Below the pieces are notes generated by a model that saw nothing but the letters and a program-made list of their open reading frames with translations, had not been told where the DNA came from and did no database searches. Positions 28,447 to 48,277 of a stretch of DNA of 64,000 nt are shown piece by piece (position 1 is the stretch's first letter; each line of letters starts with the position of its first letter). The position numbers and the translations under genes were made by a program. The DNA comes from Sphingobacterium sp. PCS056. GTDB taxonomy: Bacteria > Bacteroidota > Bacteroidia > Sphingobacteriales > Sphingobacteriaceae. The DNA lies in the NCBI RefSeq assembly GCF_023273895.1, contig NZ_CP096883.1:1550001-1614000 (forward strand). Direction: 5' to 3'.

Positions 28447-28468
28447 ATCACTGACTATAAATGATAGT

Positions 28469-28500
28469 AGCCCATTGGCATAGGCCAATGGGCTTACTTT
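28469..28500. terminator. Bidirectional terminator between integrase and HTH genes
   Basis: A perfect 10-bp stem AGCCCATTGG (28469-28478) and CCAATGGGCT (28485-28494), 6-base loop, followed by TACTTTT. It lies between the convergent integrase (plus) and HTH pair (minus). Confidence 0.7.
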
Positions 28501-28560
28501 TAACCGGACAAGCAGGCACGGAGAAACCCTAAAAAAGTTCAACCAATCGCCAAAAAGAAA

Positions 28561-28851: not shown

Positions 28852-29135
28852 TTTTTTGATGCGGTATCCGACTGCATTAACCTTTCAATATCAGCCATCC
28901 GAAAGAAGTTTTTCCGGTTGATCCGGGTAGCTTCGAGAAGTCCTTTTGCACAGTAAGTCTGCACCGTTCTTTTGCTCACACCCAATAGCTGACACACTTC
29001 CTGCTGATCCAACCACCTACTTTTTTGTTGTAGCGAGCGGTACGGCCGCGTTATTTCACTGACCAATTCACCCACTGCCTTTAATTCCCTACTCAGTGTA
29101 CTTATTACCTGAACATCCAAAACCGTTAATTCCAT
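28848..29135 (-). CDS. Small helix-turn-helix protein, excisionase-like (first of pair)
   Basis: 95 residues with the same architecture as its downstream neighbour: an N-terminal helix, then WLDQQEVCQLLGVSKRTVQT and YCAKGLLEATRINRKNFFRM, an HTH_17 fold. The two proteins are clearly paralogous and probably work together at the element ends. The gene is transcribed away from the sigma-factor gene at 29397, so the 261-bp intergenic region between them holds two divergent promoters. Confidence 0.8.
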   Translation of the reverse strand: MELTVLDVQVISTLSRELKAVGELVSEITRPYRSLQQKSRWLDQQEVCQLLGVSKRTVQTYCAKGLLEATRINRKNFFRMADIERLMQSDTASKK

Positions 29136-29999: not shown

Positions 30000-30075
30000 T
30001 CTATATTTTTCAAAAAAAACATTTTCCCACCTGCCCGAAAGCTGACCATGCGCGTATTACGACAAAAAACACACC

Positions 30076-31257: not shown

Positions 31258-31352
31258 CAGAAATATACTAACCCCTAAAAACCAAAATGATATGATGCAA
31301 AAGCGAGAATGAAAATAACAGGATAGATGCATTACTACCTATGAATAAAAAG

Positions 31353-31380
31353 GCCGGCAACGTTGACGGACGTTACCGGC
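31353..31380. terminator. Hairpin between fecR and susC genes
   Basis: An 11-bp stem with one mismatch (GCCGGCAACGT at 31353-31363, ACGTTACCGGC at 31370-31380). A-rich DNA precedes it and no T-run follows on the plus strand, so it looks more like a stability element, or a terminator for the minus strand. It separates the regulators from the transport genes. Confidence 0.5.
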
Positions 31381-31545
31381 TGAATAGGATTAATGAAACA
31401 GAACTATTTGTCTAATTCGATTTATTATTAAACCCACAGCTAAAGTATGATTTTTTTCATAAAAAGCCCGTATGCCCATTGGCGTAGCAGGGCAAGGCAT
31501 CTGCTTTCTGTTATTGTGCAGCAAGCATTTAAGAACAAGATTATC

Positions 31546-34500
31546 ATGCGCCTGAATATCATTATACTTACGGTCATACTGGCCTGTCTGAATCTAAAGG
31601 CAGAAATTTCAAGTGCGCAGACCATTTCACTGACCGTAAAGGACAAGCCCATCACCACGGTATTCAACCAGATCAGGCAGCAGACCGGATATATGTTCTT
31701 TTATAAAAATTCGCAGTTGAAAGACGCGGCAAATGTAACACTAGAGATCAAGAATACCCCCTTAAAGGAAGCCCTTGACCGTGTAATGGACAATCAGCCC
31801 TTTACCTATGAGATATTGGATAAGACGATCGTTATTAAGGAAAAAGAGAAGGCAACCAGAATACAGCAGGGCATCGATGTACAGGGAACGGTACTCCATG
31901 CCAATGGAGAGCCGTTGATCGGCGCGACAATCAGAACCCAAAGCGGTAGCGCTATCACGCAGAGCAATAACAGAGGGCAGTTTACCCTAAAAAATGTAAC
32001 CGAGGGTGAAACCTTATTTATCGCCTATCTTGGACACACCACGGCCGAGGTTGCAGCAAAGCCTAACATTGGTACAGTACGCTTGCAGCCCACCACGGAC
32101 GAACTGGAAGCGGTAAACGTCAGTGTTTCCACAGGTTACCAAAGCCTACCCAAAGAACGGGCTACAGGTAGCTTTACGCAGGTGGACAGCAGCCTGCTAA
32201 GCCGTACACCCAGTACCAATATCATTGACCGCCTGAACGGTGTTGCAAACGGGCTTTTGATACATAGCGGTCGAAGCTATAATTCTACCGGGATCAGTAT
32301 CCGTGGGCGTAGTTCTATTTTAGGAAATACAAACCCTTTAATTGTTGTCGATAATTTTCCTTACGGAGGTGATCTGAGTGCCATAAATCCCAATGATGTA
32401 GAAACCGTTACACTGCTCAAAGATGCCGCAGCAGCTTCGATCTGGGGTACGCAGGCCGGAAACGGCGTTATCGTCATCACGACCAAAAGTGGAAAATACA
32501 ATCAAAAAGCGACAATAAACCTGACTAGCAATGTGACCATCGGACAAAAGCCGCGGCTGTTTACCCAACGGCAGATGAGCAGTGCCGAGTATATCGAGGT
32601 CGAAACCAAGATGTTCGAGATCGGCAGATATAACTCCGCGATCAATAACGGCTATGCCGCCCTATCGCCCGCAGTCGAAATCCTGTTACAGCACCGGAAC
32701 AATAAAATAAACCTTGACCGGCGTAACGCTATGCTCGATAGTCTGGCGCAATATGATACGCGCCATGATAGGCTAAAGTACCTGTACCGCGTTCCGATAA
32801 ACCAACAGTACAACCTCAGTATAAGTGGTGGTACGACCGTACAGAAATACTACCTATCTGCCGGTTACGATAAGAACCTGCTTACCGAGGTCGGCAATAG
32901 TTTTGAACGGTTCAGCCTGAACGGGCAGAACACGTTCAATCTGCTCAATGACCGACTACAACTGGTCAGTGGTATGCAGTTCACCGGTAATCAGAATGAT
33001 GCTTCCAAAGGAGCCAACGCAGCCGCTTATAAATGGCCATATTTAAGACTGGCAGATGATGCTGGAAATGCCCTTCCAGTGGCAAATGATCTGCGTTTCT
33101 CCTATATCGAAGCCCAAAACGGCAAAGGGCTTTTGGACTGGTATTACCGCCCTTTGGACGAACTGGAACCCAGTAGTTTTACGAATGGACTTAATTTCAG
33201 GTTACAGAATACGCTGAGCTACCGGATCATCCCCCAGTTAAGTATTACCGCTTTCCATACCTACCAAAAGGGCGTGAGCAACACGGATAACTACAATTAT
33301 GCAAATTCGTATTTCACGCGCAATATGATCAACAGCATCACCAGTATCAACAATACGACAGGTGTGGTCACGCGCCCCATTGCCGAGGGTGACATATTGA
33401 ACAATAGCCGTAGCACCCTGACCGGGCAGTACGGCAGGTTGCAGGCTGCTTTCGATCAGACCTTTGCGCAAAGGCACAGTATCAACGCCATTGCCGGGGC
33501 TGAGATCAGCGAGTTTAAAAGCGATAATGCAGCTTATACCCTGTACGGGTACAATCCTGAAACCGGAGCCAATGCCAATGCAGCCATTAACTATACCCAG
33601 AGTTACACCAAATATACCGCAGGTACTTTTATCGTTCCAAATGGAATTAGTAACGGTGGTTTGGTCGATCATAATGTCAGCTACTATGCCAATGGGGCTT
33701 ATACCTACGACAATCGGTACACCCTATCGGCAAGTGCACGCAAAGACCAGAGCAATATATTTGGTGTGAAGTCCAACCAAAAAGGCGTACCACTATGGAG
33801 CGTAGGCGGGCTTTGGCATATCGGGCGCGAATCGTTTTATCAGGTAGACTGGCTGCCTACTTTAGCCCTGCGCAGCACCTATGGGTACAATGGCAATGTA
33901 GATAAGGCCACATCGGCTTATTTCACAATGCAACTAATCGGCTTTGCGAACGATTACGGCTTTCCTCAATACTATATAAATACTCCGCCGAACCCTTCCT
34001 TACGTTGGGAAAAAGTAAGCAATCTTAATTTTGCGATTGAATTTGCCACCGCTAAAAATCGTTTAAGTGGCAGTATAGAATATTACCAAAAGAACGGAAA
34101 GGATCTGATCGGGCTTTCTCCGCTTGCCACTCAAACCGGGGCAAACAGTTACAGGGGCAATAATGCCAACCTGCAAACCCACGGGTTAGATGTGCGACTT
34201 ACTAGCCAAAACCTCACAGGTTCCGGCCTGCAATGGCAGACCACATTCCTGCTAAACTATGTAAAGGATAAGGTAACGGCGTATATGGCAAAGCCAGGCA
34301 GCAATAACGATATTGTAGGTAACAATGCCAATCAAACGCCATTAGAGGGTTATCCCTATAGCGCATGGTTTGCGTACCGATGGGCAGGACTGGACGATAC
34401 GGGCGCACCGCAAAGTTACCTGAATGGCGAGGTTAGCAAAGATTATGGCGCAATGGTAAGCTCAACCAATAGGGATGACATTCTGTATATGGGTTCCCGT

Positions 34501-34995
34501 GTACCTACTTTGTTCGGTTCTTTGCTCAATACCTTTACATACAAAAACTGGCAGCTTAGCTGTCTACTTACCTACAAAACAGGATATGTATTTAAAAATT
34601 CAAATTCATTGAGTAACTCCAACCTGTATGCAACCAGTAATGTAAGTTATACATTAAGTCCCGACTATGCAAACCGTTGGCAGAACCCCGGTGACGAACT
34701 ATATACCGATGTCCCGGCATTGATCTATCCAACGAATACCAATAGAGATGTAATTTATACAAATTCCGAACTCCACATTTATAAGGGCGATCATTTTCGT
34801 CTGCAAGATGCCCGATTGAGTTACAGCTTACAAAAGAGTGCTTTAAATAAACTTCCTTTTAAGCAGTTAAGTCTTTTTGCTTATGGTAGCAATCTAGGCA
34901 TACTATGGCAGGCAAATAAAGCAGGGTTTGATCCAGATGGTCTGGCTATACAGCAGACACGAAGTTTAGCTTTTGGTCTTAATGCACAGTTTTAG
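31546..34995 (+). CDS. SusC-like TonB-dependent transducer with N-terminal STN domain
   Basis: About 1149 residues from the ATG at 31546, where the signal peptide starts (MRLNIIILTVILACLNLK); the frame is open 99 bases further upstream. Domains in order: STN (about 30-85, TISLTVKDKPITTVFNQIRQ), carboxypeptidase-regulatory-like (about 115-190), plug (about 195-300, with DAAAASIWGTQAGNGVIVI) and a barrel ending LAFGLNAQF. The STN domain marks a signalling transporter that reports to the FecR encoded upstream. FecI-FecR-SusC(STN)-SusD sets serve glycans, glycopeptides or peptides; the ligand here is unknown. A TlpA-like gene downstream is common in such clusters. Confidence 0.92.
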   Translation: MRLNIIILTVILACLNLKAEISSAQTISLTVKDKPITTVFNQIRQQTGYMFFYKNSQLKDAANVTLEIKNTPLKEALDRVMDNQPFTYEILDKTIVIKEKEKATRIQQGIDVQGTVLHANGEPLIGATIRTQSGSAITQSNNRGQFTLKNVTEGETLFIAYLGHTTAEVAAKPNIGTVRLQPTTDELEAVNVSVSTGYQSLPKERATGSFTQVDSSLLSRTPSTNIIDRLNGVANGLLIHSGRSYNSTGISIRGRSSILGNTNPLIVVDNFPYGGDLSAINPNDVETVTLLKDAAAASIWGTQAGNGVIVITTKSGKYNQKATINLTSNVTIGQKPRLFTQRQMSSAEYIEVETKMFEIGRYNSAINNGYAALSPAVEILLQHRNNKINLDRRNAMLDSLAQYDTRHDRLKYLYRVPINQQYNLSISGGTTVQKYYLSAGYDKNLLTEVGNSFERFSLNGQNTFNLLNDRLQLVSGMQFTGNQNDASKGANAAAYKWPYLRLADDAGNALPVANDLRFSYIEAQNGKGLLDWYYRPLDELEPSSFTNGLNFRLQNTLSYRIIPQLSITAFHTYQKGVSNTDNYNYANSYFTRNMINSITSINNTTGVVTRPIAEGDILNNSRSTLTGQYGRLQAAFDQTFAQRHSINAIAGAEISEFKSDNAAYTLYGYNPETGANANAAINYTQSYTKYTAGTFIVPNGISNGGLVDHNVSYYANGAYTYDNRYTLSASARKDQSNIFGVKSNQKGVPLWSVGGLWHIGRESFYQVDWLPTLALRSTYGYNGNVDKATSAYFTMQLIGFANDYGFPQYYINTPPNPSLRWEKVSNLNFAIEFATAKNRLSGSIEYYQKNGKDLIGLSPLATQTGANSYRGNNANLQTHGLDVRLTSQNLTGSGLQWQTTFLLNYVKDKVTAYMAKPGSNNDIVGNNANQTPLEGYPYSAWFAYRWAGLDDTGAPQSYLNGEVSKDYGAMVSSTNRDDILYMGSRVPTLFGSLLNTFTYKNWQLSCLLTYKTGYVFKNSNSLSNSNLYATSNVSYTLSPDYANRWQNPGDELYTDVPALIYPTNTNRDVIYTNSELHIYKGDHFRLQDARLSYSLQKSALNKLPFKQLSLFAYGSNLGILWQANKAGFDPDGLAIQQTRSLAFGLNAQF

Positions 34996-35011
34996 AAAGG
35001 AGAAATACGAG

Positions 35012-36385
35012 ATGAAACAATTTTTTACCCTATTTATAGTACTGACAGCCTTATTATCAGGCTGCAAGGAGGATTTTTTAGACACCAAGCCCAATACCAA
35101 TCTGGTGATACCCCAACGGGTGGAAGATATAGAGATTCTACTGGACAACACTTCGATAAATAAAACCGGTGGTTTAGGACACATGGGCGCGGATGAATAT
35201 GTATTTGTAGATTACGCGGCTTGGCAGGGAACATTTACAGCTACAGAGCGTAATGCCTATATCTGGGCAAAAGATATTTATGATGGATTGATGACGGTTA
35301 GAGACTGGGAACAGCTTTACCTTTCTATTTCATTTGCCAACAATGCACTAAATAGTTTAGATGATTTAAAGCTACCTGTAAATTCCCGAACCAATAATGC
35401 CAAAGGTTGGGCGTTGTTTTTGCGCGCCTATGCCTATGCTGACCTGCTTAAAAATTTCTGTCTGACGTATGATGAAGTAACTGCGCAGACAGACTTAGGC
35501 TTGCCTATCCGGTTAAGCCCTGCCATTGACGAGATACAGCCCCGCGCCAATTTAGCGGACACCTACACGCAGGTAATTACTGATCTCAAACAGGCGGCCG
35601 CTTTGCTGACATCACAGTTTCCGGAAAAGAACAGAAATCGTCCCTATAAAGGCGCCGCATACGCGATGCTTGCACGGGTATATCTGAGTATGAATAAATA
35701 CACCGATGCGGAAAAGTATGCGGACAGTGCCTTAAATCTTTACAATAAGTTGATTGATTACAATATGGTTTCAACAACCAGTGCCACACCGTTTACCCGT
35801 ACAAATGATGAAGCTATATTTCAGACCACCACGGTCGGTTATAACATAGTAGCAAATGCAGTATGGAACACCGAGGTGACGGTAAATCCTGATATTATAA
35901 ATAGCTACAAACCTAATGATTTGCGTTTACAGATTTTTTTTGCAAAAAATCCACAAGGAAATTATTATGTAAAGACAGGGTATTTTGGTGCGGGAGCCTA
36001 TCCCTTTTCAGGCTTATCAGTTGACGAGCTATACCTGATCAAAGCGGAGTGCCTGGCACGTGCGGGAAAGACAAGCGATGCTATGCAATGGCTTAATAAT
36101 TTACTGGTAAAGCGTTTTAAAAATACCGTACCCTACGTGCCGCTAACTGCTACCAATCCCGACCAAGCTTTGCAATTAGTATTAGCCGAGAGAAAGAAGG
36201 AATTGATCTGGCGCGGCCAACGTTGGAGCGATATTAAACGCTTAAATAAAATTGGTGCAAATATTACATTAAAAAGAGTATTAAACGGTAAAGAATATTT
36301 GTTACCGCCAAATGATCTGCGTTATGCATATCCAATCCCGGCCGATGAGATTACATACAGTAACCTAATACAGAATCCCCGTTAA
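35012..36385 (+). CDS. SusD-like surface lipoprotein of the FecIR-linked system
   Basis: About 457 residues from the ATG at 35012, preceded by a rare good Shine-Dalgarno (AAAGGAG). The signal peptide MKQFFTLFIVLTALLSGC ends in a lipobox. The SusD-like helical N-terminal region and RagB/SusD C-terminal region (ERKKELIWRGQRWSDIKRLN) are complete, and the protein ends as usual with a YPIPADEI motif. It is 16 bases after susC. Base composition drops towards AT in this gene compared with fecI, fecR and susC. Confidence 0.92.
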   Translation: MKQFFTLFIVLTALLSGCKEDFLDTKPNTNLVIPQRVEDIEILLDNTSINKTGGLGHMGADEYVFVDYAAWQGTFTATERNAYIWAKDIYDGLMTVRDWEQLYLSISFANNALNSLDDLKLPVNSRTNNAKGWALFLRAYAYADLLKNFCLTYDEVTAQTDLGLPIRLSPAIDEIQPRANLADTYTQVITDLKQAAALLTSQFPEKNRNRPYKGAAYAMLARVYLSMNKYTDAEKYADSALNLYNKLIDYNMVSTTSATPFTRTNDEAIFQTTTVGYNIVANAVWNTEVTVNPDIINSYKPNDLRLQIFFAKNPQGNYYVKTGYFGAGAYPFSGLSVDELYLIKAECLARAGKTSDAMQWLNNLLVKRFKNTVPYVPLTATNPDQALQLVLAERKKELIWRGQRWSDIKRLNKIGANITLKRVLNGKEYLLPPNDLRYAYPIPADEITYSNLIQNPR

Positions 36386-36398
36386 AACCTAATAACAT

Positions 36399-37943
36399 AT
36401 GAAACAATATATTGTCATCATACTGTCCATAATTTGGACAGCATTTCTGCACGCGCAGACAGATACCAACTACCTGAATGGTAGAATTACCGGTAAAAAA
36501 TTTAGCCCCGGTAGCAAAATAGATTTTTTGATTTTTAATCCAAATCATATCAATGTATCTCTCAAACCTGATACAGTTCTTACCACAACGATAGATAGTA
36601 CGGGTAATTTTAATTTAAAATACATTCCCCCTCAACCATTATTTTATATGGGAATGGATTTTTATAACGGAACAGATAGCTTGTTATCATCTTTAAGAAA
36701 GGAATTTTTAATCGATCCCTTTATTTGTCAGTCTGGTGATAGTGTGTCTCTTAGCCTGAAAATAATTTCCACTCAAAATAACGGTGGAGGTTTGAGCAAT
36801 ATTGGATGGTTTAGCGGTAAGGGAGCAGACAAGTATAATGTACAATACCTGATAAACCATTATGAAGAAGCAAGCGAACTAAGTGGCCCATATTATTACT
36901 ACGGAGCATTAAGTAAGGATGAACCAATATTCAACAAAGAAAAGTTTTATTTATTACAGCAAGAGTACCGTTTACATATAGCAGATGCCTTTAAAGGCCA
37001 TGTCCCCGATACCATACTGACACGAATAAAACGGAACCTTATAGCGATGTCAAAATATCGGTTTACGAGTACATTCTTACATGGCCGATATTCATGGGGC
37101 ATTAAGGAACATAAGCAAAAAATCATTGATTTTGTCAATGCAGCTCATAGTAGCAAAAGTTTATTTTCGCGTGATGATGAATTAACAGGATCACGCGGAT
37201 ACGCCGATTTTATTTTATTGGCAGATGAACTACGTTACCGTATAAAACATAATATCAGTTATACTGGCGAGGTTAAGTATCTGCACAATAGTGATTTTGC
37301 TTCATGGATGTATAATAATATTAAAACTAACTATAGTGGTTCGTTAAGAGAAATATTACTAACCGAATGGTTCAGCAATGGCTATATGCTTAAATATTTT
37401 TTTAAAAAAATGGAACCTTTCTTACAGGAAGCGAAAGCAATGCTAAAGCTGGAGGATAACAGGACATTATTAGATAAAATTGCCGAACAGAGCGAAGGAA
37501 AAAAAGCATTTCCTTTTAAATTTATTGATGAGAAGGGTAAGATACACACCTTAGAAGACTATAAGGATAAGATTTATGTATTAGATTTTTGGTACACAGG
37601 TTGTTTAGGTTGTACGGGTATTCCACCTGTAATGAAAATTATCATGGAAGAATTTAAAAGCAGAAAGGATGTCGTTTTTTTAAGCATAAGTGTGGATCGC
37701 TCTATTAAATGGTGGGAATATGGCTTATCTACCGGACTTTATACACTACCCGGTCAAATCCATTTAAAAACCATAGATAGAGGAAAGAACGATCCTTTTA
37801 TACTGAATTATCAAATTGGTGGTTATCCCAAAGTTATGGTCATAGGTAAAAATGGAGAGCTATTAGCCGTAAATCCTACTGATCCGAGAATTGATAAAGG
37901 GAAGGACATTATTGACATGATAAAGATGGCGCTTAAAAATTAA
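36399..37943 (+). CDS. TlpA-like thiol-disulfide oxidoreductase, exported
   Basis: 514 residues with a signal peptide (to LHAQ). The first 350 residues are a poorly conserved domain typical of Bacteroidota TlpA-like proteins encoded behind SusC/SusD. The C-terminal thioredoxin domain (about 370-510) contains the active site C402-L-G-C405 within FWYTGCLGCTGIPP, and the cis-proline segment GGYPKVMVI. The CxxC is intact, so redox activity in the periplasm is expected, perhaps on the transporter or imported peptides. It begins 13 bases after susD and ends in a terminator. Confidence 0.88.
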   Translation: MKQYIVIILSIIWTAFLHAQTDTNYLNGRITGKKFSPGSKIDFLIFNPNHINVSLKPDTVLTTTIDSTGNFNLKYIPPQPLFYMGMDFYNGTDSLLSSLRKEFLIDPFICQSGDSVSLSLKIISTQNNGGGLSNIGWFSGKGADKYNVQYLINHYEEASELSGPYYYYGALSKDEPIFNKEKFYLLQQEYRLHIADAFKGHVPDTILTRIKRNLIAMSKYRFTSTFLHGRYSWGIKEHKQKIIDFVNAAHSSKSLFSRDDELTGSRGYADFILLADELRYRIKHNISYTGEVKYLHNSDFASWMYNNIKTNYSGSLREILLTEWFSNGYMLKYFFKKMEPFLQEAKAMLKLEDNRTLLDKIAEQSEGKKAFPFKFIDEKGKIHTLEDYKDKIYVLDFWYTGCLGCTGIPPVMKIIMEEFKSRKDVVFLSISVDRSIKWWEYGLSTGLYTLPGQIHLKTIDRGKNDPFILNYQIGGYPKVMVIGKNGELLAVNPTDPRIDKGKDIIDMIKMALKN

Positions 37944-38313: not shown

Positions 38314-38814
38314 AATCTTAGTTGCTTTTTACGATTTCAAAAAGCATAAAGTATTAATTAGATGCCTACTCTGATCTGGGGTTTTCGGCTTCTCCCTAAC
38401 AATATTTCAGGCCTAAAATATATGCGGTATATCGATGGCATTGCTGCCAGTGAAAAGAAAGATAAGTTTGTGCTGTTTTCAGAACCTTTAAAAAAAACGT
38501 TCTGTTGTCCGTCGGTATGTAATGATACATTTTTAATAACAGCCCGAAGTTTAAAAAAGAGGATGATAAAGTGCAAAGAAAAAACTATCGGGCTGTTTTG
38601 CTAACCAGTCTAAAACTTTATAAAATGAACAATGAAAAATTTTAATTTACTTCTAGCATTCAGTAACATGATAAAGTTAAAATGATTTTCTAATACCAGT
38701 CAAGAGGGCTGATTTTCAAAACTGTAAGATAAGTCACCATTTCGGTATAAGTCCGCAATTTTTTGGTATAATTCCGCAAATTTTTGGCCTTATTTTGATA
38801 AAATTTATCATAAT
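38314..38814. other. Leader/regulatory region between DUF6520 and LytTR genes
   Basis: 501 bases without a convincing gene; frames on both strands (38358-38604) have no recognisable motif. It contains a 10-bp inverted repeat AACAGCCCGA/TCGGGCTGTT with a 40-base loop (38538-38547 and 38588-38597), and the 21-bp-period direct repeat at 38744-38779. On the minus strand this is the upstream region of the DUF6520 gene. Confidence 0.5.
38744..38779. promoter_or_regulatory. Direct repeat with 21-bp period, candidate LytTR-binding site
   Basis: GGTATAAGTCCGCAA (38744-38758) and GGTATAATTCCGCAA (38765-38779) differ at one base and are spaced exactly 21 bp, two helical turns. LytTR-domain regulators are known to bind two direct repeats about two turns apart. 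The site lies just beyond the 3' end of the LytTR gene and upstream of the DUF6520 gene. The link to this regulator is inference. Confidence 0.4.
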
Positions 38815-39678
38815 TTAGAACGGTTCTAAGTGTTTTTTAGCATTATTTATATATTCTCTTGTGATAATTAGTAAGAAATTTCTGTTTTCCCCTATTATGT
38901 TTTGATACTTTTTGCGAACTTCCACTAATAAAGTATCACGCTTTTCGCCACTTTTATACCCTTCGATAATTGTTTTATTGATCAAAACACCGGGATTGAT
39001 CTGTATAAATCCGTATGTCGAATAGCGTATTGCTAGATTACCGATACTGTCATTTGCTTTATAAAGATTACCTTCCATACTATTAAAGTAAACCTGTTTA
39101 CCTGAACGGAAAAAACAAAGTACATCTTTAGCGACATTGAACCTGATAACATCATCTTTCCATTTTATTTCAAGATCGCCATTATCCAAATTGGGACTGG
39201 ATTCATCTATTTTGAGATTTTGATGCTCAATTTCCCGGTATATTTCTTTTTCACTAGCCAAAATATAATATAACCAGTAATACACACTTAGCAGCGTAAA
39301 TAGCCCACCTACGATGGGTAGATCAATCCATACAAAGCCGTTCTCAAATATGCTTTGCCCGTTTTCTTTAAAATAGAAATAGAAAAATAAAGCATCGATA
39401 AACGAAGGAAGTATAACGCAAAGTATAAATTGCATATACATACGTTTAATTCGTTGTGTACGCCAGTCACAATGCCTGTCAAGTCGTTTGGTAAAGTAAT
39501 GTACCAGATAAATCAATCCTAATGCGATCGAAAAACTAAGTGCCAACTGGAAATAAAATTCCGGTGAGGTAAAGGCATCCGCAAAATCGGGCGGACGGCC
39601 ATGAAAAAGAATATAGAGCGCAGCGAAAAGCGCGGCAAATACCCGGAATTTAAGGTTATGGTAGGAAACTGTTGTCAT
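38815..39678 (-). CDS. Membrane-bound LytTR-type regulator
   Basis: About 287 residues from the ATG at 39676-39678 (an upstream ATG at 39717 adds 13 residues). Four hydrophobic helices (about 15-150) are followed by a LytTR DNA-binding domain (about 175-285): LEIKWKDDVIRFNVAKDVLC, the QVYFNSMEGN turn, YSTYGFIQINPGVLINKTII. Such membrane-LytTR proteins are common in Sphingobacteria and act as one-component regulators of unknown signal. It is the only DNA-binding regulator in this part of the island, next to the DUF6520 gene and a repeat that suits LytTR binding. Confidence 0.8.
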   Translation of the reverse strand: MTTVSYHNLKFRVFAALFAALYILFHGRPPDFADAFTSPEFYFQLALSFSIALGLIYLVHYFTKRLDRHCDWRTQRIKRMYMQFILCVILPSFIDALFFYFYFKENGQSIFENGFVWIDLPIVGGLFTLLSVYYWLYYILASEKEIYREIEHQNLKIDESSPNLDNGDLEIKWKDDVIRFNVAKDVLCFFRSGKQVYFNSMEGNLYKANDSIGNLAIRYSTYGFIQINPGVLINKTIIEGYKSGEKRDTLLVEVRKKYQNIIGENRNFLLIITREYINNAKKHLEPF

Positions 39679-40208
39679 ATGCAATGGTTTTAGGGTTAAG
39701 CATGGATCACAGTTCATTCAATTTTGGGATAGTCAAGTTACTGAAACCTGACGTAATGTGCAAAAGGATTTCCGTAATGATCGAAAGGGATTGGTTCGGT
39801 GCTTACCAAAAAGGAATACGCAAAAAGGAAAGTAAATTTACTTGGACGGTGCAGGTAAACCGGACAAAAGACTACGCCATAATGGGTTGCTCGTAAACTC
39901 ACAACCCACCCCGGAGGGGACTTATTGCGTTTCCTTTTGCCGGCCTGCCCCTGTCCAAGTGGTTGAAAAGACTTTCTTTTTCCGTTTTCTTTTGGAAAAC
40001 AGTTTTTTGTGCTTATACGTTTGGGCATTCAAGCGTTCGTACGTGCAAACGCTGAAACGCACGCGCGTACCTGCACAGGACTACAAAACTGATCAACGGG
40101 TTTGAAAGCTACATCACCGCGTAAACGATCCGCCTACAAAGCCCGGTTTTTGTCGAGGTCATTTTTCCCGATCACATCTTCGTAAAAAGCTTGGTGTTAA
40201 TCCATAAA

Positions 40209-40318
40209 AAAACGGATCGCTGTCTGTCAATAGTGAGGTCAAGTTGTCCGAACTCAGCTTCCTAAAAAACTGTCGCGTCCGACACCGAAAACAGATTGCC
40301 GTCTGTCAATAGCAAGGT
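40209..40318. repeat. 31-bp direct repeat, two copies 79 bp apart
   Basis: Copies at 40209-40239 and 40288-40318 match at 26 of 31 positions, sharing the core GTCTGTCAATAG. They abut the long inverted repeat at 40312-40365. Not part of any recognisable gene. Confidence 0.7.
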
Positions 40319-40365
40319 GTGTTTTTGTCATACAAAAACCTTTTTGTATGACGAAAACCCTTGCC
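40312..40365. repeat. Long inverted repeat (candidate oriT or protein-binding site)
   Basis: An 18-bp arm at 40321-40338 pairs with 40341-40358 with one mismatch and only two bases between the arms (core GTCATACAAAAA). After a short bulge the symmetry extends to GCAAGG at 40312-40317 and CCTTGC near 40360-40365. No T-run follows and no gene ends here, so it is not an ordinary terminator. Confidence 0.7.
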
Positions 40366-40503
40366 ACTATCGTGGTACAGTTTGGCTCCGAAGTCGCTAA
40401 CCATATTGGTTTGTAACGTTTTAGTCATCAAGGATACTTACTGTAAGAAAAGTAATATAGTTTATGTACGTATTTACACTGCTTTTTGGGACAAACTGCC
40501 TTA

Positions 40504-40539
40504 ATTACGGTTTTACCGTAATGCTGTTGAATTTAACAG
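40504..40539. promoter_or_regulatory. Two adjacent palindromes upstream of the JAMM-like lipoprotein gene
   Basis: ATTACGGT-TTT-ACCGTAAT (40504-40522) is followed at once by CTGTT-GAATTT-AACAG (40524-40539), about 35 bases before the ATG at 40573. The position fits an operator or a structured leader. No regulator is identified. Confidence 0.35.
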
Positions 40540-40572
40540 GGCAATATTTGCAAACGCATTTTAAGATCAATT

Positions 40573-42024
40573 ATGAAAACAATTTTTAAAGTATGGATTT
40601 TTATCATCCTGGTGATGCTTGCTGGTTGTGAGCTTAACGAGGAAGTTATCCGCAATGAAAAATATGCGGAAAAAATCAAAATAAGAGAATCATCGCTAGA
40701 TGTTTTACTTGGAGAAAATAAGTTTGTAGCTGCCTATAATAAAGTTTATGCTACCCGCGATAAATCGCGTACTGTAATGGAACAACAGTACAATTTTACA
40801 ATCGTACCATATGGCGCAAAAGTTATAGACGATGGTAATAATACTTCCTATACCTTTAAGATTACACGGGAAATTAATAACCCAGATTATTTTGAGAACC
40901 TTGTAATTAACGTAGATAGTTTGGGACAAACAAGTGCTTATATTCTAAAATATACACCAAGTGAACCGTTAGCGCCTGCCGCGCATAATTCTTTTAATTT
41001 TAAAGGGCAAGTAAAAATAACACCGATTGTGTACAATACTACGGAAACGGGTAAAACAACAATCTGTGTTACGGCGCAAATTTTGATGTGCGATCAGGCA
41101 TGGAGTTCAACAAACACCGGTGTACACGTTGCTACCAATGACTGTCAGGATCAAAATCACTTATTTTATTCTCCTGTTACAACCTGTTATACTGTTAATG
41201 GAGATATTGGCGGTGGCGATTTTGGTGATGACCCTGTTGTTATTGCTCCAATTGGCGGCGGGGGCGGTGACCCTCCGGCAGAAGGCACACCTCCTAATAA
41301 TTGTCATCGATGCCCGGTTATTATTACTGCACCTGTAGAGGAATGGGTAGAACCGCCTTTACATTGCGAAAAGTTAAATGAACTCCTTAAAAGCTTTAAT
41401 TTTAAAGAAGCAATAAAAAAATTAAAAACAGAACAGGCTTTAACCGGCGTTAAAGAGCAAGGGTATAATTTATCATATAATGCAAAAGGAAATTTAGTCG
41501 TGTCAGAAGTTCCCGAAGCAAATACAGGTGAAAATAACGTAAATTATTCCACTTTCCCATTAGTTTTTGGCGGCATACATTGTCACCTAAACGGTCATTT
41601 CTCATTGTTTTCCGGCGCTGATCTGTTTTTATTGGAAAAATTTTATCAAAGGCATAATTACGTTTCAAACGGCGGTGTTTCCAACCCATTAATACCGGTT
41701 CATTTACTTGTTTCTAATATGGGCGTATATGCGATATCTGCCGACAATGTTCAAGCGATGGAAAAACTAAGAGAAATTTATTCAAATAATAAAAAACGTG
41801 AAAGCTTTGTGAGAGCGTTAGAAAAAAATTATCAAAAAATTGATAACAGTAGTTTTGCATTAGCAAATTATCAAAAAATATTTTTAGAGTTCCTAAAAGA
41901 CAATGGTTTACAACTTTCATTGTATAAAGCTGACGATAATCTAACAAAATGGACTAAATTAGCTCTCAACGATAATCCTGAGACTAATACAAACAAACCT
42001 ATTAATGAAATAACCTGTAACTAA
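40573..42024 (+). CDS. Lipoprotein with C-terminal JAMM/JAB-like metalloprotease motif
   Basis: 483 residues. The signal peptide ends in the lipobox VMLAGC. The N-terminal domain (about 25-225) is unknown and beta-rich; a Gly/Pro hinge follows (about 213-245, GGGGGDPPAEGTPPNN), then a Cys-containing linker and a C-terminal domain (about 265-483). In that domain GGIHCHLNGHFSLFSGADL resembles the JAMM motif HxH...SxxD: H336, H338, S347, D350. Spacing is one residue longer than in AMSH or RadC, and the usual Pro after the second His is Leu. The hinge followed by an enzyme-like tip suggests a surface-displayed hydrolase or toxin. Context: 7 bases before a DUF6705 lipoprotein gene. The AT-rich codons differ from the fecI-susC genes. 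The fold is inferred from the motif alone. Confidence 0.6.
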   Translation: MKTIFKVWIFIILVMLAGCELNEEVIRNEKYAEKIKIRESSLDVLLGENKFVAAYNKVYATRDKSRTVMEQQYNFTIVPYGAKVIDDGNNTSYTFKITREINNPDYFENLVINVDSLGQTSAYILKYTPSEPLAPAAHNSFNFKGQVKITPIVYNTTETGKTTICVTAQILMCDQAWSSTNTGVHVATNDCQDQNHLFYSPVTTCYTVNGDIGGGDFGDDPVVIAPIGGGGGDPPAEGTPPNNCHRCPVIITAPVEEWVEPPLHCEKLNELLKSFNFKEAIKKLKTEQALTGVKEQGYNLSYNAKGNLVVSEVPEANTGENNVNYSTFPLVFGGIHCHLNGHFSLFSGADLFLLEKFYQRHNYVSNGGVSNPLIPVHLLVSNMGVYAISADNVQAMEKLREIYSNNKKRESFVRALEKNYQKIDNSSFALANYQKIFLEFLKDNGLQLSLYKADDNLTKWTKLALNDNPETNTNKPINEITCN

Positions 42025-42031
42025 TATTGAT

Positions 42032-42640
42032 ATGAAAATAATTCTTAAATTTTTCCTGTTAGTAGCTTGCTTATCGTGTAAGGCGCAAGTCATAGTACCA
42101 ATTGCCAGTGATAGTGATGCAGCATACGGAAACAATACTTATAATAAAGATGTTGATAATGATTTTGCTAAATATATTGGTACATGGAAATACCAAAACG
42201 GAAATACATCACTTACAATTTCTTTTGCGAAGAAAACATTCGAGTACTTCGAATATAAAAATTACTATCAGGATTTGTTAATTGGTGAATACAAATACAT
42301 CAGTAACGGGACTGAAATTATAAATACATTATCATTACTTGCTGATAATTCACTAAGTGGTGACGATCATAATATTTCCGGAAATTTAATTTGGAAAAAA
42401 AATACTTACCCGGTATGTAATGATTGTACGCAGAATGAACGCAGAATTAAGCTTTCGTTTTATGATCCAGATAGAAGATATTTAAGCAGCTCTATTATTT
42501 TACGATATAAAAATGACAACGGTACCGAAAAAATAATTGTTAAAATATATAAAAGCGATAACTCCATTATGCAACCGGATGGGTCTCCGGATGAAATGCG
42601 CCTTCCTTATGGAGAGTACATTTTGACGAAGCAACCTTAG
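42032..42640 (+). CDS. DUF6705-like lipoprotein
   Basis: 202 residues with a lipoprotein signal (VACLSC, then KAQ). The mature part follows the DUF6705 pattern: an NTYNKDVDNDFAKYIGTWKY segment, then alternating beta strands like a small lipocalin-type barrel (LIGEYKYISNGTEI, INTLSLLADN), ending LPYGEYILTKQ. DUF6705 proteins are common, often in tandem copies, and uncharacterised in Bacteroidota. The gene starts 7 bases after the JAMM-like lipoprotein gene, so the two are co-expressed and could form an effector/protector pair. A structured 145-bp repeat begins 13 bases after its stop. Confidence 0.65.
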   Translation: MKIILKFFLLVACLSCKAQVIVPIASDSDAAYGNNTYNKDVDNDFAKYIGTWKYQNGNTSLTISFAKKTFEYFEYKNYYQDLLIGEYKYISNGTEIINTLSLLADNSLSGDDHNISGNLIWKKNTYPVCNDCTQNERRIKLSFYDPDRRYLSSSIILRYKNDNGTEKIIVKIYKSDNSIMQPDGSPDEMRLPYGEYILTKQP

Positions 42641-42652
42641 AATATCTTAGGA

Positions 42653-42797
42653 AGTTTGCCACGTTCCTGCAAACGGCCAGATGTCCGGTTGTATCACAAA
42701 CCGATTTTTCAAGCCCCCTACTCGAATCTCGTGGGCTTAGCTGAAACAAAGATTTATACCTGCTAACTAGTCCAAAAGTTAGCAGGTATTTTTTATA
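42653..42797 (+). repeat. 145-bp structured repeat, copy 1
   Basis: This 145-bp segment matches 42920-43064 at 133 positions with no gaps. It contains short inverted repeats (GTTTGC/GCAAAC, GGTTTGT-type arms, AAGCCC/GGGCTT) and ends in a perfect terminator (CCTGCTAAC and GTTAGCAGG, followed by T-rich DNA). It directly follows the DUF6705 gene, so at least the last part is that operon's terminator. Confidence 0.85.
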
Positions 42798-42919
42798 CTA
42801 CCCCATAAATATCCTTCTTACTGTAAAATATTGAAGTACCCAATTATTACCTTCCATAATAACTAAATAGTAGAATTTTGGTAGATAGATTTTGATTAGG
42901 TGAATTAATACATCTTACC

Positions 42920-43064
42920 AGTTTGCCACGTTCCTGCAAACGGCCAGATGAACGGTTGTATCACAAACCGATTTTTCTAGCCCTTCACTCGTTACTCGTG
43001 GGCTTAGTTGAAACAAAGATTTATACCTGCTAACTAGTTCAAAAGTTAGCAGGAATTTTTTATA
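42920..43064 (+). repeat. 145-bp structured repeat, copy 2
   Basis: Second copy of the repeat at 42653-42797, 267 bp downstream, in the same orientation and of identical length. Only 122 bp separate the copies and no gene precedes this one. Differences cluster in loops and spacers, while the terminator arms are intact. It could be the leftover 3' end of a deleted second gene cassette, or an RNA element. Confidence 0.85.
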
Positions 43065-43606
43065 AAAGGGATTTTGATAAAAGTATTTAAAGTCTCAGTA
43101 TTTCTCTGGATTTGAGTTGTGCACAACCGATAGATAATTTTTCACTGAGTTCTTTTATCCGTATTGCTTCCCTTATTTAATTGATATGTTGAACCGCTTT
43201 AACAAGAAGCTTACCCGTTTCAAAATCTTTAAGTTGAGAAAGTAAAAAGACGTAGAAAATACTTGACGAATTTCATTTAAGCAATAAATATCAGTATTTT
43301 CTACAAAATCATAAATAACTAGCTTGTTATACGCTTTATAAAACTCAACTTTAAGGCTTCTAAATATTTTACAGGATAGATTTTGATGATAAATCCTAAC
43401 TTTTACAGCTTTAATCTATTGTAATACAATGAGTAGGATTAAAATTAAACAATAAATTCCTGACATCATCATTTGGGAATCAAAAAATAGGTTAAACAGA
43501 AATCGAATTTTAACTCATCAGATACCTAGGACTAGCTATAATTGATGTTTTTGTTATCTTAGCCGCAAATCTTTTTCTGCTAACAGTAAACATTTTTGAA
43601 TTAAAT
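43065..43606. other. AT-rich gap before the PAS sensor gene
   Basis: 542 bases with no called gene. On the minus strand a frame of about 70 codons without an ATG (ending at 43173) reads EFYKAYNKLVIYDFVENTDI and further protein-like sequence; it may be a decayed gene but I do not recognise a family. The final bases hold the presumed promoter of the sensor gene. Confidence 0.4.
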
Positions 43607-46600
43607 ATGAAACGCGGCACTTGTAATGGTTGTAATTATGATCAAACGATTTTTGACCTTGCTCCTTTCCCCATGTGGATATATGAGATGGAAACTTTTC
43701 GTTTTCTCGCAGTAAACAAAGAAGCGATTCGCCAATATGGTTACAGTGAGAGTGAATTTATGATGATGACAATTAAGGATATTCGTCCGGAAGAAGACAT
43801 TCCGAAACTTGAAATAGCAGTAAAGAAAGCTAAGACACGTACTGAGATTTATAAGGAAAGTCTTTTTAGACACAAGAAACGTAATGGAGATATCCTTTAT
43901 GTTCAGATCAAAAGTAATCTTATAAATTTTCGAGGTAAGAAAGCAGAGATCGTCACGGCGATTGACCTCACTGAGCGTTATAAAAAGGAGCGAGAAATTT
44001 TGGCTCAACAATATTATCTGAAAGCCATTGGTAATATCAATAAGATATTGCTTAAATCCAATGACTGGATCAGATCACTTAGTACCTGTTTCAAAATCAT
44101 AGGTAATACAATAGATATAGATCGTATATACTTCTTTCAGAATAACTTAAAGAATAAGACTACTTTTCAAAGGTTAGAATGGAATCGAAATTGTATTGAG
44201 TCTCAAATTGATAATCCTATGCTTCAGAGTGTACCTCTTTCTAAATTTCCATTATTCATGAGGCCTCTTAGAAAGAAAAAGCATTTTGAAGCTATAGTCG
44301 ACGAGCTTCCCCCTTCACCCACCAAAAGTATTCTGGAGTCACAAGACATTCAATCGATACTTGTTTTACCAGTATGGGTAGATGAAGATTTTTATGGTTT
44401 TATAGGATTCGATGATTGTAAACAGAGAAAAAAATTTTCAGATAATGAATTTCAATTATTATATGCCTTGACATCCAATCTCGCTCATGTGCTTAAAGAA
44501 CATAAAGCATATCAGGAATTGTCATTTAGTGAAGGGAGGTATAAATCGTTAATCGAAAATGGCAGAGATCTGGTCGCTATTATAGATGAAAGCGGAAATT
44601 ACAAATATGTTGCTCCCACTTCAAAAACTGTACTTGGAATCGATTCTGAAGAATTCTTAGGCAAAAATGCTTTTGATTTTATTTATGAAAAAGATATACC
44701 TCGCTTAAAACGTCAGTTGGCTAAAATTCAAAATTCAAATTACGTGTCTATTGAACCCTATCGCTTTCCGGATGCCAATGGTAATTTGCGTTGGATACGA
44801 ACCGAGCTATCAAATCACGTTAACACGCCCTTAATTGAGGGTATTGTAGCTAATACACATGAGGTTACAGCAGAAATAGAGCAAAAAATTGTTAACGAGC
44901 TGGTTACAGAAATAACTTTAGCTGTAGCCAGACCTAACTCCTTAGTAGTATGTCTTAATGAAGCATTAAAAAAGTTGGTAAAGCTCCCCAAAATAATTGT
45001 AAGCGAAATTTGGTTGTTGGCTCCGGATAGCAGTCACTTAAATCTCGTTTCAAAAGCTTGTAAGGAAATTAGCCTAAATGCTTTTTATCAACATACATTG
45101 AACGTAACTTCCTGTAATAAGAAAGAATGTTTACCAGGTACGGTCTGGGATGAAAAAAAAAGCATAATCTGGAAAAACCTTTCTAACCACAAATATTTCG
45201 TTCGTGCAGAAGCTGCTAAACCTGTTAAGCTTTCAACTGGTATTGGCCTTCCTATAATTTATGCTGACCAATTTCTCGGCTGCATCGTATGTTTCTCGCA
45301 AGATACCGTTGACCAACTTTCCGAACAGATTAACCTACTAACCAATGTCAGCGAAAAGTTGGGGGCTCTTGTTAAGCAAAAGATCACTGAGGAAGAATAT
45401 CGTAACTTTTTTAATATTTCTCCGGATCCACATTGCATAGTTGGTTTTGATGGCTATATAAAAAAATGTAACAAAGCGTTTATTTCTTTGATTGGGTATC
45501 AAAAGAAATATTTGTATACAACATCGATTTTTGATATCATACACAAAGACGATAAAGATAAGGCTGCTAAAAGTTTGATATCATTGATTAATCGCCGTTT
45601 GACGGAGCCTTTTAAAGGAAGATTTATGACCTCAAAGGGAGAGGTAAAATGGTTGTTGTGGTCAGCAACAGTTGCTTCCGAATCTAAAACTATAGTTGCT
45701 GTTGGAAAGGATATTACCGAACAGACAATAGCTGAGCAGGAATTACAAACAGCATACGAACGTTTAAAGACAGCTCAAAAAATTGCTAAACTGGGTTATT
45801 GGTATAGAGACATCAATTCAGATATTTCGATATGGAGTGAGGAAACCTATAAGATTTACGAATGTTCACCAGATACTTTTAAACCTACTATAGAGAATTT
45901 AATTCGAACTTTCCAACCGGCCGATAGATTTTTAATTGAGGGTAACCCTACAATGTACCTTATACCCGGAGAAGCAAAGAGCTTTGAGCACGAAATTATG
46001 ACACTGTCGGGTAAAATGAAATGGGTTCGTCAGGAGGTAAGACTCTTGACAAATGAACACGGAACGCCTGTTCAGATTGAGGGTACAATACAAGATATAA
46101 CTGAAAGGAAAGGATATGAAAAGCAATTATATTTAAGCAACGAAGTATTTAAACTTGCAATGCAAGCCAGTAATGAAATGATCTGGGATGTAGACCTTAT
46201 AACTAACCAACTCACCAGAAGAAAGGATCACAATCAGACTTTTGATTGTAATTTAAGTGAAAGGTTTTCCTTAGATAATTCTTGGTTCAGTGCGATAGAA
46301 CCCGGCGATCGAAAAAAAGTTTGGGATTCTCTTGAAAGATCTCTCGAGGATAGCAATGAAAAATCGTGGCGTGCAGAGTATAGGGTCATATCACAAGATG
46401 GAGTTATATCTTATTTTGTAGATAGGTGCAATATATTGAGAGATGAAAAAGGTAAAGCTGTAAGGCTTGTTGGAGCAGCGTTGGATGTCTCAGCTTCGCG
46501 TCGGTATATAGAAAGAATTAAGAAGCAAAATGAAAACCTTCGTGAAATTGCCTGGATACAATCTCATGTAATACGTGGGCCGCTTACAAGAATCATGGCT

Positions 46601-46759
46601 TTAGTTTACCTTTCAAAAGAACTTGGAGGAGGAGGCATGTCCACTGATGAAATAATGGAACTAATTATGGAATCAGCCAACGAGTTAGATAAGGTAATAT
46701 ACCAAATTACGGATAAAACAAACTCGATAAATGATGAAAATGCCAAAGATACTCAATGA
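43607..46759 (+). CDS. Multi-PAS/GAF sensor protein with a lone dimerisation-type helix and no ATPase domain
   Basis: 1050 residues, no signal peptide or obvious membrane helix, so cytoplasmic. Domains in order: PAS (about 10-130), GAF-like (about 140-300), PAS (about 315-430), GAF-like (about 435-600), then three PAS domains with PAC tails (about 605-725, 735-855, 865-980; for example IQDITERK and ALDVSASRRY). The end (about 975-1050) resembles a HisKA helix: IQSHVIRGPLTRIMALVYLS with H987. Only 63 residues follow, so there is no HATPase_c domain. It cannot autophosphorylate in the usual way. It may work by binding a partner, or be phosphorylated by another kinase. Last gene before the island's right repeat. 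Confidence 0.85.
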   Translation: MKRGTCNGCNYDQTIFDLAPFPMWIYEMETFRFLAVNKEAIRQYGYSESEFMMMTIKDIRPEEDIPKLEIAVKKAKTRTEIYKESLFRHKKRNGDILYVQIKSNLINFRGKKAEIVTAIDLTERYKKEREILAQQYYLKAIGNINKILLKSNDWIRSLSTCFKIIGNTIDIDRIYFFQNNLKNKTTFQRLEWNRNCIESQIDNPMLQSVPLSKFPLFMRPLRKKKHFEAIVDELPPSPTKSILESQDIQSILVLPVWVDEDFYGFIGFDDCKQRKKFSDNEFQLLYALTSNLAHVLKEHKAYQELSFSEGRYKSLIENGRDLVAIIDESGNYKYVAPTSKTVLGIDSEEFLGKNAFDFIYEKDIPRLKRQLAKIQNSNYVSIEPYRFPDANGNLRWIRTELSNHVNTPLIEGIVANTHEVTAEIEQKIVNELVTEITLAVARPNSLVVCLNEALKKLVKLPKIIVSEIWLLAPDSSHLNLVSKACKEISLNAFYQHTLNVTSCNKKECLPGTVWDEKKSIIWKNLSNHKYFVRAEAAKPVKLSTGIGLPIIYADQFLGCIVCFSQDTVDQLSEQINLLTNVSEKLGALVKQKITEEEYRNFFNISPDPHCIVGFDGYIKKCNKAFISLIGYQKKYLYTTSIFDIIHKDDKDKAAKSLISLINRRLTEPFKGRFMTSKGEVKWLLWSATVASESKTIVAVGKDITEQTIAEQELQTAYERLKTAQKIAKLGYWYRDINSDISIWSEETYKIYECSPDTFKPTIENLIRTFQPADRFLIEGNPTMYLIPGEAKSFEHEIMTLSGKMKWVRQEVRLLTNEHGTPVQIEGTIQDITERKGYEKQLYLSNEVFKLAMQASNEMIWDVDLITNQLTRRKDHNQTFDCNLSERFSLDNSWFSAIEPGDRKKVWDSLERSLEDSNEKSWRAEYRVISQDGVISYFVDRCNILRDEKGKAVRLVGAALDVSASRRYIERIKKQNENLREIAWIQSHVIRGPLTRIMALVYLSKELGGGGMSTDEIMELIMESANELDKVIYQITDKTNSINDENAKDTQ

Positions 46760-47169
46760 TTAATACTATTTATTCACGCAGGATAATGCAAAATGTATAA
46801 TTGTAATTTGTACTTTTATATATGGTGAAAAGAGTTAATAGAAACTGAGACAAAAATTAATTTGTATAAGATTTTTTCATTTGATGTATGCCATAAGAAT
46901 ACATCATGATTACATTTCTTAGTCTCAAAACAGAATTTTGCGACGAGATAATATTATATTTGTAATGAGTTATACGGAAACAGATTGAAGTATAGTGCAA
47001 TAAGAATCGTTACTAAATCGTTACCTAACTACTTCTCAAGTCAGTATAAGATGTTGATTTTAAATAATAAGCATTTATTAGCAATCTTTTAAAATAAAAC
47101 AAACGTTACGCTCTGCAGACCGTTATATAGGTAGAGAATAAGAGTGGTTAGCATAAAAAATGAAAAATA
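46760..47169. other. Gap holding the island's right junction
   Basis: 410 bases. The left part is AT-rich island DNA without a gene. The 19-bp repeat lies at 47009-47027, and beyond it is chromosomal DNA with the presumed MscS promoter. No tRNA gene or fragment was seen at either junction. Confidence 0.6.
47009..47027. repeat. Right attachment-site repeat (attR)
   Basis: GTTACTAAATCGTTACCTA, identical to 26855-26873 and in the same orientation. ATAAG lies four bases before it, as at the left copy. It is 142 bp upstream of the MscS gene, so integration was intergenic and did not break a gene. Confidence 0.75.
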
Positions 47170-48264
47170 ATGATGAACGAAGAATTAATTCAACTTTCAC
47201 AAAAATTTCCCGCCTGGTTATGGAATACAGCATTTATCCTATTTTCTTTTCTGATCGGTATTCTGATAAAAATTCTATTTATCCCCATTTTACGTTATCA
47301 GGCAATAGCACAGTCTTCCTACTCTTTATTTCGATCTTTTATACGTCGATTTAACAAGATTTTGAGCCTATTTATTCCGCTCGTTGTCTTTAATGGTCTG
47401 TTGCCTTTGAGTCGATTCAATACGTCAACACTTCATATCGTCAGTAAAATTAACGAAATCTTATTGGTCAGTTTTTTTGCTGTAGTTTTGATTCAGGCCA
47501 TTAAAGTTTTTGAAGATTACCTGTATCATCGCTTCGATATCAATAAGGAGAATAATCTACGTGAACGGAAAATTAGAACGCAGATTGTATTTATCCGAAA
47601 GGTTTTTGTTGCGATCATTATTGTCGTATGTTTTGCCATTATCTTATTGAGTTTTGAAAGCATGCAAAAAATCGGAGCTGGATTATTAACAGGTGTTGGT
47701 GTTGGAGGTATTATCATCGGTTTTGCTGCACAGAAGTCGCTTGGCAATTTATTGGCAGGTTTTCAAATTGCGTTTACACAACCGATCCGCATGGATGATG
47801 TATTGGTGGTAGAAGGGGAGTGGGGCAAAGTGGAAGAGATCAATCTGACCTATGTCGTGGTCAATATTTGGGACAAGCGACGCTTGGTCTTGCCGATCAC
47901 CTATTTTATTGAAAAGCCTTTCCAAAATTGGACGAGGTCTACCGCGGAGATATTAGGAACTGCTTTTATTTATGTTGATTTTGCTATTCCTGTACAACAG
48001 TTGCGGGAGAAATTAACCTCATTGCTTGAGCATCATCCTTTATGGGATGGGAAAGTCAATGTATTGCAGGTGACAGACCTGAAAGAAAAGACGATGGAGA
48101 TTCGCTGTTTGATGAGCTGTCGCAATTCAGGACAGGCTTTCGATCTGCGTTGTTATATACGCGAAGAGATGATCAACTATATTCGAACAACTTTTCCAGA
48201 ATGCTTGTCGAAAACGAGAGTGAATTATCAACCGGATGCGATTGGAATAAAATATGAAGTATAA
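47170..48264 (+). CDS. MscS-family mechanosensitive channel
   Basis: 364 residues. Four to five hydrophobic helices lie in the first 190 residues. The pore-lining TM3 region is rich in Gly/Ala (GAGLLTGVGVGGIIIGFAAQ) and leads into KSLGNLLAGFQIAFTQPI, the MscS signature joining TM3 to the beta domain (RMDDVLVVEGEWGKVEEI). The C-terminal cytoplasmic alpha/beta cage follows. It releases solutes during hypo-osmotic shock or acts as a related small-conductance channel. Chromosomal gene just right of the island. A hairpin terminates it. Confidence 0.9.
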   Translation: MMNEELIQLSQKFPAWLWNTAFILFSFLIGILIKILFIPILRYQAIAQSSYSLFRSFIRRFNKILSLFIPLVVFNGLLPLSRFNTSTLHIVSKINEILLVSFFAVVLIQAIKVFEDYLYHRFDINKENNLRERKIRTQIVFIRKVFVAIIIVVCFAIILLSFESMQKIGAGLLTGVGVGGIIIGFAAQKSLGNLLAGFQIAFTQPIRMDDVLVVEGEWGKVEEINLTYVVVNIWDKRRLVLPITYFIEKPFQNWTRSTAEILGTAFIYVDFAIPVQQLREKLTSLLEHHPLWDGKVNVLQVTDLKEKTMEIRCLMSCRNSGQAFDLRCYIREEMINYIRTTFPECLSKTRVNYQPDAIGIKYEV

Positions 48265-48277
48265 TGCTATGCGAATA

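Follow-up and report, generated by a model that had tools for sequence, protein, structure and literature searches.

A probable relaxase-less mobilisable island with putative MobA/MobB-type transfer origins in Sphingobacterium sp. PCS056

The closest described counterparts of the island analysed here are the mobilisable genomic islands (MGIs) that are mobilised by SXT/R391 ICEs (MGIVflInd1 type, mainly found in Vibrio): according to the relevant passages of PMC5704250 these measure 18-33 kb, possess a tyrosine integrase, an excisionase and an ICE-like oriT, and carry no conjugation protein. The same passages report relaxase-less IMEs from Firmicutes and Proteobacteria, voice the expectation that an oriT will be present in many genomic islands lacking conjugation proteins, and tabulate the Bacteroides elements NBU1, NBU2, Tn4555, cLV25 and Tn4399 all with a MobP relaxase (PMC5704250). 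An integrated element that has an oriT and no relaxase is called an iOriT, and some plasmids carry several oriTs, which widens their range of helpers (both in passages of PMC11389934).

The island that we describe lies within a stretch of 64,000 nt of the Sphingobacterium sp. PCS056 chromosome (1550001-1614000), the window, to which all positions refer unless stated otherwise. It follows the same plan as the MGIs of SXT/R391, but the latter belong to Gammaproteobacteria and combine an SXT-type oriT with a MobH helper relaxase, whereas the island resides in a member of the Bacteroidota, relates to PF03432 (MobA/MobB) lineages and has two putative oriT types in three copies. It also fits the definition of an iOriT, a class of which it is a putative member and for which the cited passages name no Bacteroidota case (PMC11389934). 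Like NBU1, NBU2, Tn4555, cLV25 and Tn4399 it would be an integrated passenger of helper elements in Bacteroidota, unlike them it bears no relaxase; like the multi-oriT plasmids it has more than one oriT per element, from which it differs by being integrated and relaxase-less. With the MobA-MobB-MobC and Tra-encoding ICEs of Bacteroidota it has in common the order attL-integrase-HTH_17-hairpin-oriT and the oriT itself, but their mob/tra genes were not found in it. No relaxase-less oriT island from Bacteroidota occurred among the literature matches listed, which cover open papers only and are weak evidence of absence; the class itself is known, and its Bacteroidota version appears to be new.

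The limits of the island follow from the relative G152, where the site is empty and the counterparts of window positions 24402-26731 and 47087-48266 are joined directly (90-92% identity), and TTTTAAAATAAAA occurs exactly twice in the window, at 26716 and 47087. On the basis of this empty site and these repeats the island spans approximately 26.73-47.09 kb, i.e. ~20.4 kb, and runs from the integrase through a multi-PAS protein. A right end inside 40400-43700 had been considered and was rejected: an att search of 26450-28600 against that interval gave only 11-12-mers, since the real right end lies farther out, where the empty site placed it. The ends, the main genes and a conserved hairpin are:

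26716-26728, unstranded: left att repeat TTTTAAAATAAAA, left island end (one of two window copies; empty site of G152)
26986-28236, plus strand: tyrosine recombinase (integrase) of 416 aa (Pfam Arm-DNA-bind_5, Phage_int_SAM_5, Phage_integrase)
28561-28851, minus strand: HTH_17 excisionase-like protein (Pfam HTH_17)
28848-29135, minus strand: second HTH_17 protein (Pfam HTH_17; 56-57% amino-acid identity with its ICE counterparts)
29397-37943, plus strand: cargo, comprising ECF sigma factor, FecR, TonB-dependent receptor, SusD-like and thioredoxin-like proteins (Pfam)
39866-39938, plus strand: conserved imperfect hairpin AAAAGACTACG...CTTATTGCGTTTCCTTTT, common to ICEs (relaxase-locus comparison)
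42032-42640, plus strand: DUF6705 protein, between oriT-B and oriT-A, the putative transfer origins described below (Pfam PF20448)
43607-46759, plus strand: multi-PAS/GAF domain protein, final island gene (Pfam; within the island per the empty-site comparison)
47087-47099, unstranded: right att repeat TTTTAAAATAAAA, right island end (second window copy; empty site of G152)

Inside the island an Rfam DUF805b motif is also present on the minus strand (38363-38398).

An initial annotation, made from the sequence only, had supposed an integrative element without mobilisation genes, and this was borne out. Pfam detected no relaxase, coupling or secretion gene among all 22 island ORFs of at least 80 aa (13 main ORFs and 9 shadow or short ones, of which the 9 gave no match at all), and tblastn with the ORFs of three ICE stretches, two ICE mob loci and the mob region resident elsewhere in the genome recovered neither a relaxase, coupling or secretion protein nor any mob/tra fragment from the island. 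The island proteins common to ICEs are the integrase and the two HTH_17 proteins (Pfam, tblastn); tblastn further paired the island gene 38815-39717 with one of the genes in the resident region. An autonomous ICE encodes a relaxase and type IV secretion, neither of which was found in the island; as in an iOriT or MGI there are defined ends and a recombinase of its own, a putative helper-related oriT, and no relaxase, coupling or secretion gene. Because an integrase and three oriT-like sites are present but no gene for cutting or moving the DNA was found, the island probably hitch-hikes on other conjugative elements, and we hold it with considerable confidence to be a relaxase-less mobilisable island (iOriT/MGI) that carries a MobA/MobB-type oriT, with oriTs for two relaxase lineages.

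The island has its backbone order in common with ICEs. The order attL-integrase-HTH_17 pair-hairpin is identical in three ICE stretches (L129, L130 and L131), at ~70-75% DNA identity to the island; the oriT and then the relaxase come next in L129 and L130, and L131 has its integrase split in two. The island integrase is uninterrupted, shares 67% and 65% amino-acid identity with those of L129 and L130, respectively, and contains the HLARHT and IYAK stretches that these also possess. The first HTH_17 protein is 81-83% identical to its ICE counterparts and scores 25.9 with the NCBIfam excise model TIGR01764, slightly below the cut-off of 28.8. In the island the HTH_17 pair is separated from the hairpin by the sigma/FecR/Sus cargo, and neither mobA nor anything after it is present. 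Most likely, an ICE of this kind lost its mob/tra genes, kept the cis sites and so became the island; a chimeric origin is also possible.

The first putative transfer origin, oriT-B, is located in the non-coding block between the genes ending at 39717 and starting at 40573, and consists of the following parts:

40209-40239, plus strand: direct repeat, copy 1 (26/31, 84%, versus copy 2)
40288-40318, plus strand: direct repeat, copy 2, continuing into the oriT-B stem (26/31, 84%, versus copy 1)
40309-40400, plus strand: oriT-B, putative, of MobA/MobB type, with a two-tier hairpin and a nic-like box (model R2, pattern match, pairing)
40385-40396, plus strand: GCTCCGAAGTCG box, inferred nic region (exact in the window)

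The initial annotation had described the direct repeat as well as an inverted repeat with an 18-bp arm, a two-base spacer and one mismatch, extended by GCAAGG/CCTTGC, and all three were recovered in place. None of 200 dinucleotide-shuffled versions of the 855-bp block 39718-40572 contained an arm as long as that of the inverted repeat (40321-40338 / 40341-40358; 94% complementary), their best measuring 14 nt, and the 26/31 of the direct repeat were not reached in 200 further shuffles (best 23); the outer stem extension is read from the sequence at 40312-40317 / 40359-40364. The extent of the structured element had been set too short, as these repeats form the left half of a conserved unit that is longer, runs to 40400 and includes the box. 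Folded as DNA, 40300-40385 reaches -19.6 kcal/mol, whereas its shuffles average -7.3 (z -6.1, 0/200 shuffles). The hairpin at 39866-39938 is another structured element of the block. As a whole the block occurs once in the 5.2-Mb single-contig genome, and BLAST of the block, taken at 873 bp, against plasmid and phage collections gave no match. The two-tier hairpin and the GCTCCGAAGTCG box are those of the MobA/MobB-type oriT of Bacteroidota ICEs, but the position directly upstream of mobA and relaxase is not: the next downstream gene, at 40573, has no Pfam match, and we therefore consider oriT-B an orphan copy of this oriT type, outside any mob module.

Relatives of the block were found beside relaxase genes. 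BLAST against 399 genomes of the family matched 9 other genomes, in 6 of which (L035, L036, L037, L038, L040, L041) mobA and relaxase genes come directly downstream of the hairpin; of the other three, L031 is at a contig end, and L039 and L042 are without mobA/relaxase, L042 matching a different part of the block. The mobA-upstream DNA of Sphingobacterium ICEs follows the same plan in other letters (GCAAG, inner hairpin, CTTGC, ~20 bases, GCTCCGAAGTCG), which was written as the search pattern GCAAGN{28,58}CTTGCN{8,38}GCTCCGAAGTCG. This pattern matched once in the window and never in 100 shuffles; across 93 genomes of the genus it matched 30 sites in 20 genomes, and the reversed control pattern none. 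At all 29 sites outside the window a relaxase gene (one broken) follows in the same orientation, a number that is partly non-independent because the pattern was devised after several of these loci had been seen. The relaxase starts 470-507 nt past the motif in 27/29 sites and at +1039 in L115; that of L106 is in pieces. The relaxases at these sites, and at the oriT-A loci treated below, were recognised by their N-terminal sequence, and those of L104, L035 and the resident element were tested by profile.

The reverse approach started from MobB-like loci (the best 80 of 93) that were picked by relaxase protein alone in named genomes, in part the same as those of the pattern search. The exact motif was present within 1100 nt upstream of the relaxase in 74/80, and CTCCGAAGTCG, with at most one mismatch, within the same distance in 78/80. 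The six misses comprise three boxes with one mismatch (L140, L199, L200), motifs situated ~1.1 kb (L179) and 4.1 kb (L204) upstream, and a locus cut by the contig end (L148); elsewhere in the 847 kb of these loci only 2 motif copies occur, namely these more distant upstream motifs of L179 and L204. A search for similar sequences near relaxase genes, the check put forward in the initial annotation, thus gave the opposite of the outcome that would have spoken against a transfer origin, and from these comparisons the identity of oriT-B as an oriT appears well supported.

A further test used a model (R2) derived from 14 diverse ICE sites, with the window left out; these 14 were retained by a similarity cut from 109 motif entries, among which 58 sequences were distinct and some sites stood twice. 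In 284 kb R2 found one significant match, window 40309-40400 (44.9 bits, E 1.8e-7; next E 0.51). The ICE sites score 86-111 bits and antisense readings of ICE hairpins alone reach up to 39.1 bits, so that much of the window's score derives from the palindrome itself. Five of the six relaxase-side BLAST relatives (L035, L036, L037, L038, L040), whose sites have a different letter set and box, are missed by R2 and thus constitute another subtype; the sixth, L041, scores 35.5. The set scored later with R2 omits L144 and L197 (whose bit scores equal those of L142 and L195), L035-L038, L040 and L041, and antisense matches were removed from it by an E-value limit. In an alignment of 31 sites, which had been fitted to the structure, 95.5% of the pair cells hold standard pairs versus 27-52% in slid versions, and double changes occur in 12/20 pairs. 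The window forms 20/20 model pairs, in 8 of which both bases differ from the commonest pair; given these paired changes, the hairpin of oriT-B has been maintained while its letters changed.

The second type, oriT-A, is present in tandem:

42648-42748, plus strand: oriT-A copy 1, putative (R1 75.5 bits, E 2.7e-20)
42915-43015, plus strand: oriT-A copy 2, putative (R1 72.6 bits, E 2.1e-19)

Both lie in a 145-nt repeat behind the DUF6705 gene (two copies, 92% identical, starts 267 nt apart). The model R1 was built from the site resident elsewhere in the genome and 19 relatives, the window being left out and the rows L055, L065 and L066 (box not found) and L070 (copy of L051) being dropped; as RNAalifold gave just two small helices in oriT-A, what R1 captures is mainly sequence. 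The copies fold slightly better than shuffles (z -1.6 and -1.7). The segment 42646-42709 has a 92% match to the resident site, which lies ~0.5 kb upstream of the genome's only PF03432 relaxase and is the sole other match of the island copies in the genome. The third stem has other letters in the resident site than in the island copies and pairs in each; the resident site differs from the copies in the nic-side stem and the box, and therefore recognition of the island oriT-A by the resident relaxase is not assured. Behind each copy, and still within the 145-nt repeat, come a 13-bp stem-loop and a run rich in T (42756-42789 and 43023-43056) that look terminator-like by eye.

Outside this genome, 23 oriT-A-like sites were found family-wide, and a relaxase gene or its N-terminus adjoins 17 of them: in 16 the gene is complete or truncated by the limit of the locus, and in L055 there are 61 residues next to the edge of the contig. 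In L049 the contig ends just past the expected mobA start. The sites L051/L070 (in the last ~2 kb of L228/L229; G103, identical sequences at two contig ends) adjoin a shortened mobA of 89 aa; L228/L229 encode an integrase 32% identical to that of the island and show no relaxase match in ~20 kb on that side, and are possibly another relaxase-less element. The site L071 (L221 9121-9882) stands beside a broken mobA/relaxase pair, a possible intermediate toward an oriT-only state, and the sites L053 and L067 (L222 9743-9843, L223 9548-9647) have no relaxase within ~10 kb. As judged from gene names read by eye, the L222 site adjoins an apparent sigma/FecR/SusC/SusD set.

A candidate helper seems to be present in the same genome. 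The PF03432 profile search of the genome gave a single match, the relaxase at chromosome position 4951598, which is not of the B lineage; the PF03432 model scores above its cut-off there, the MobB model below (297.9; cut-off 400). A MobC coupling protein (above the NCBIfam cut-off) follows it, and TraG, TraJ, TraK, TraM and TraN are encoded ~37-47 kb away on the same chromosome. Since the genome has both the island and this putative ICE region with a matching oriT-A, the helper relation is testable in one strain. The resident region also contains genes that resemble the sigma/FecR/Sus cargo of the island by length and order (chromosome 4932011-4940336; L225 10012-18337), and a relative of the island gene 38815-39717 lies near that set.

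Under the reading as a relaxase-less mobilisable island, the island would excise via its own integrase, after which the MobA/MobB relaxosome of a co-resident ICE would bind the hairpin and nick near GCTCCGAAGTCG (oriT-B) or near the matching box of oriT-A; the strand would then exit by way of the MobC coupling protein and the Tra channel of the ICE, and the island would re-integrate in the recipient. Of the two types, oriT-A would suit the lineage of the ICE resident in the genome, and oriT-B ICEs of other Sphingobacterium, Flavobacterium, Chryseobacterium and relatives. More tentatively, the island may be a passenger of multiple helpers, which has kept or gathered oriTs for two MobB-like lineages, one of them duplicated, together with a possible single-strand-promoter hairpin, and which could be carried by many common ICEs of the phylum. 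The signature for two Bacteroidota oriT types makes the genomes of the phylum searchable for silent passengers of this kind, whose cargo is a sigma/FecR/Sus set here and may be another elsewhere.

The alternative to this probable mobilisable island that survives best is a dead relic, i.e. a decayed ICE with leftover oriTs that are out of use; the initial annotation had spoken of a relic transfer origin. The genome is without a B-lineage PF03432 relaxase, oriT-B is far diverged (44.9 versus 86-111 bits) and decay is seen among the relatives, in the broken mobA/relaxase pair of L221 and in the shortened mobA and the integrase of L228/L229 with no relaxase match; a relic is nevertheless unlikely, as the stems are intact with paired changes (20/20), the integrase is uninterrupted with its motifs present, no mob/tra fragment is left in the island, and the two extra oriT-A copies are unexplained by simple loss. 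That the block has a regulatory role for the gene at 40573, as its terminator, attenuator or RNA leader, would agree with a strong hairpin upstream of an ORF, but is highly improbable: the hairpin has no terminator-like match (the block has 1 elsewhere versus a shuffle mean of 0.9), no Rfam family reaches its gathering threshold there, and the relatives are found upstream of relaxase genes. Arm sites of an integrase or excisionase typically have direct and inverted repeats, which are indeed present, but the distance of the block to the left (13.6 kb) and right (6.7 kb) ends and the adjoining relaxase genes of its relatives render this explanation barely credible.

In the island, the hairpin at 39866-39938 is a further element common to ICEs: it was found in 50/80 relaxase loci (L134-L213), in one copy each and on the strand of the relaxase. 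The DNA fold of window 39855-40020 has a z of -3.25, with 3/200 shuffles equally good. As to genes behind the hairpin, there was no enrichment of a start codon at a fixed distance in general (12/68 distinct copies, including that of the window, versus 251/1360 random positions). In ten other loci (L005-L013, L021) the hairpin ends 121-134 nt before a start codon, and besides those only L137 (132 nt) and L153 (125 nt) have one at such a distance. The downstream genes of L006 and L021 match Pfam SSB, and those of L005, L007, L008 and L011 have similar N-termini. The Frpo sequences of the F plasmid are single-strand promoters, some of which lie upstream of ssb (passages of PMC11541004), and by analogy the 39866-type hairpin might be such a promoter, which we offer as a lead.
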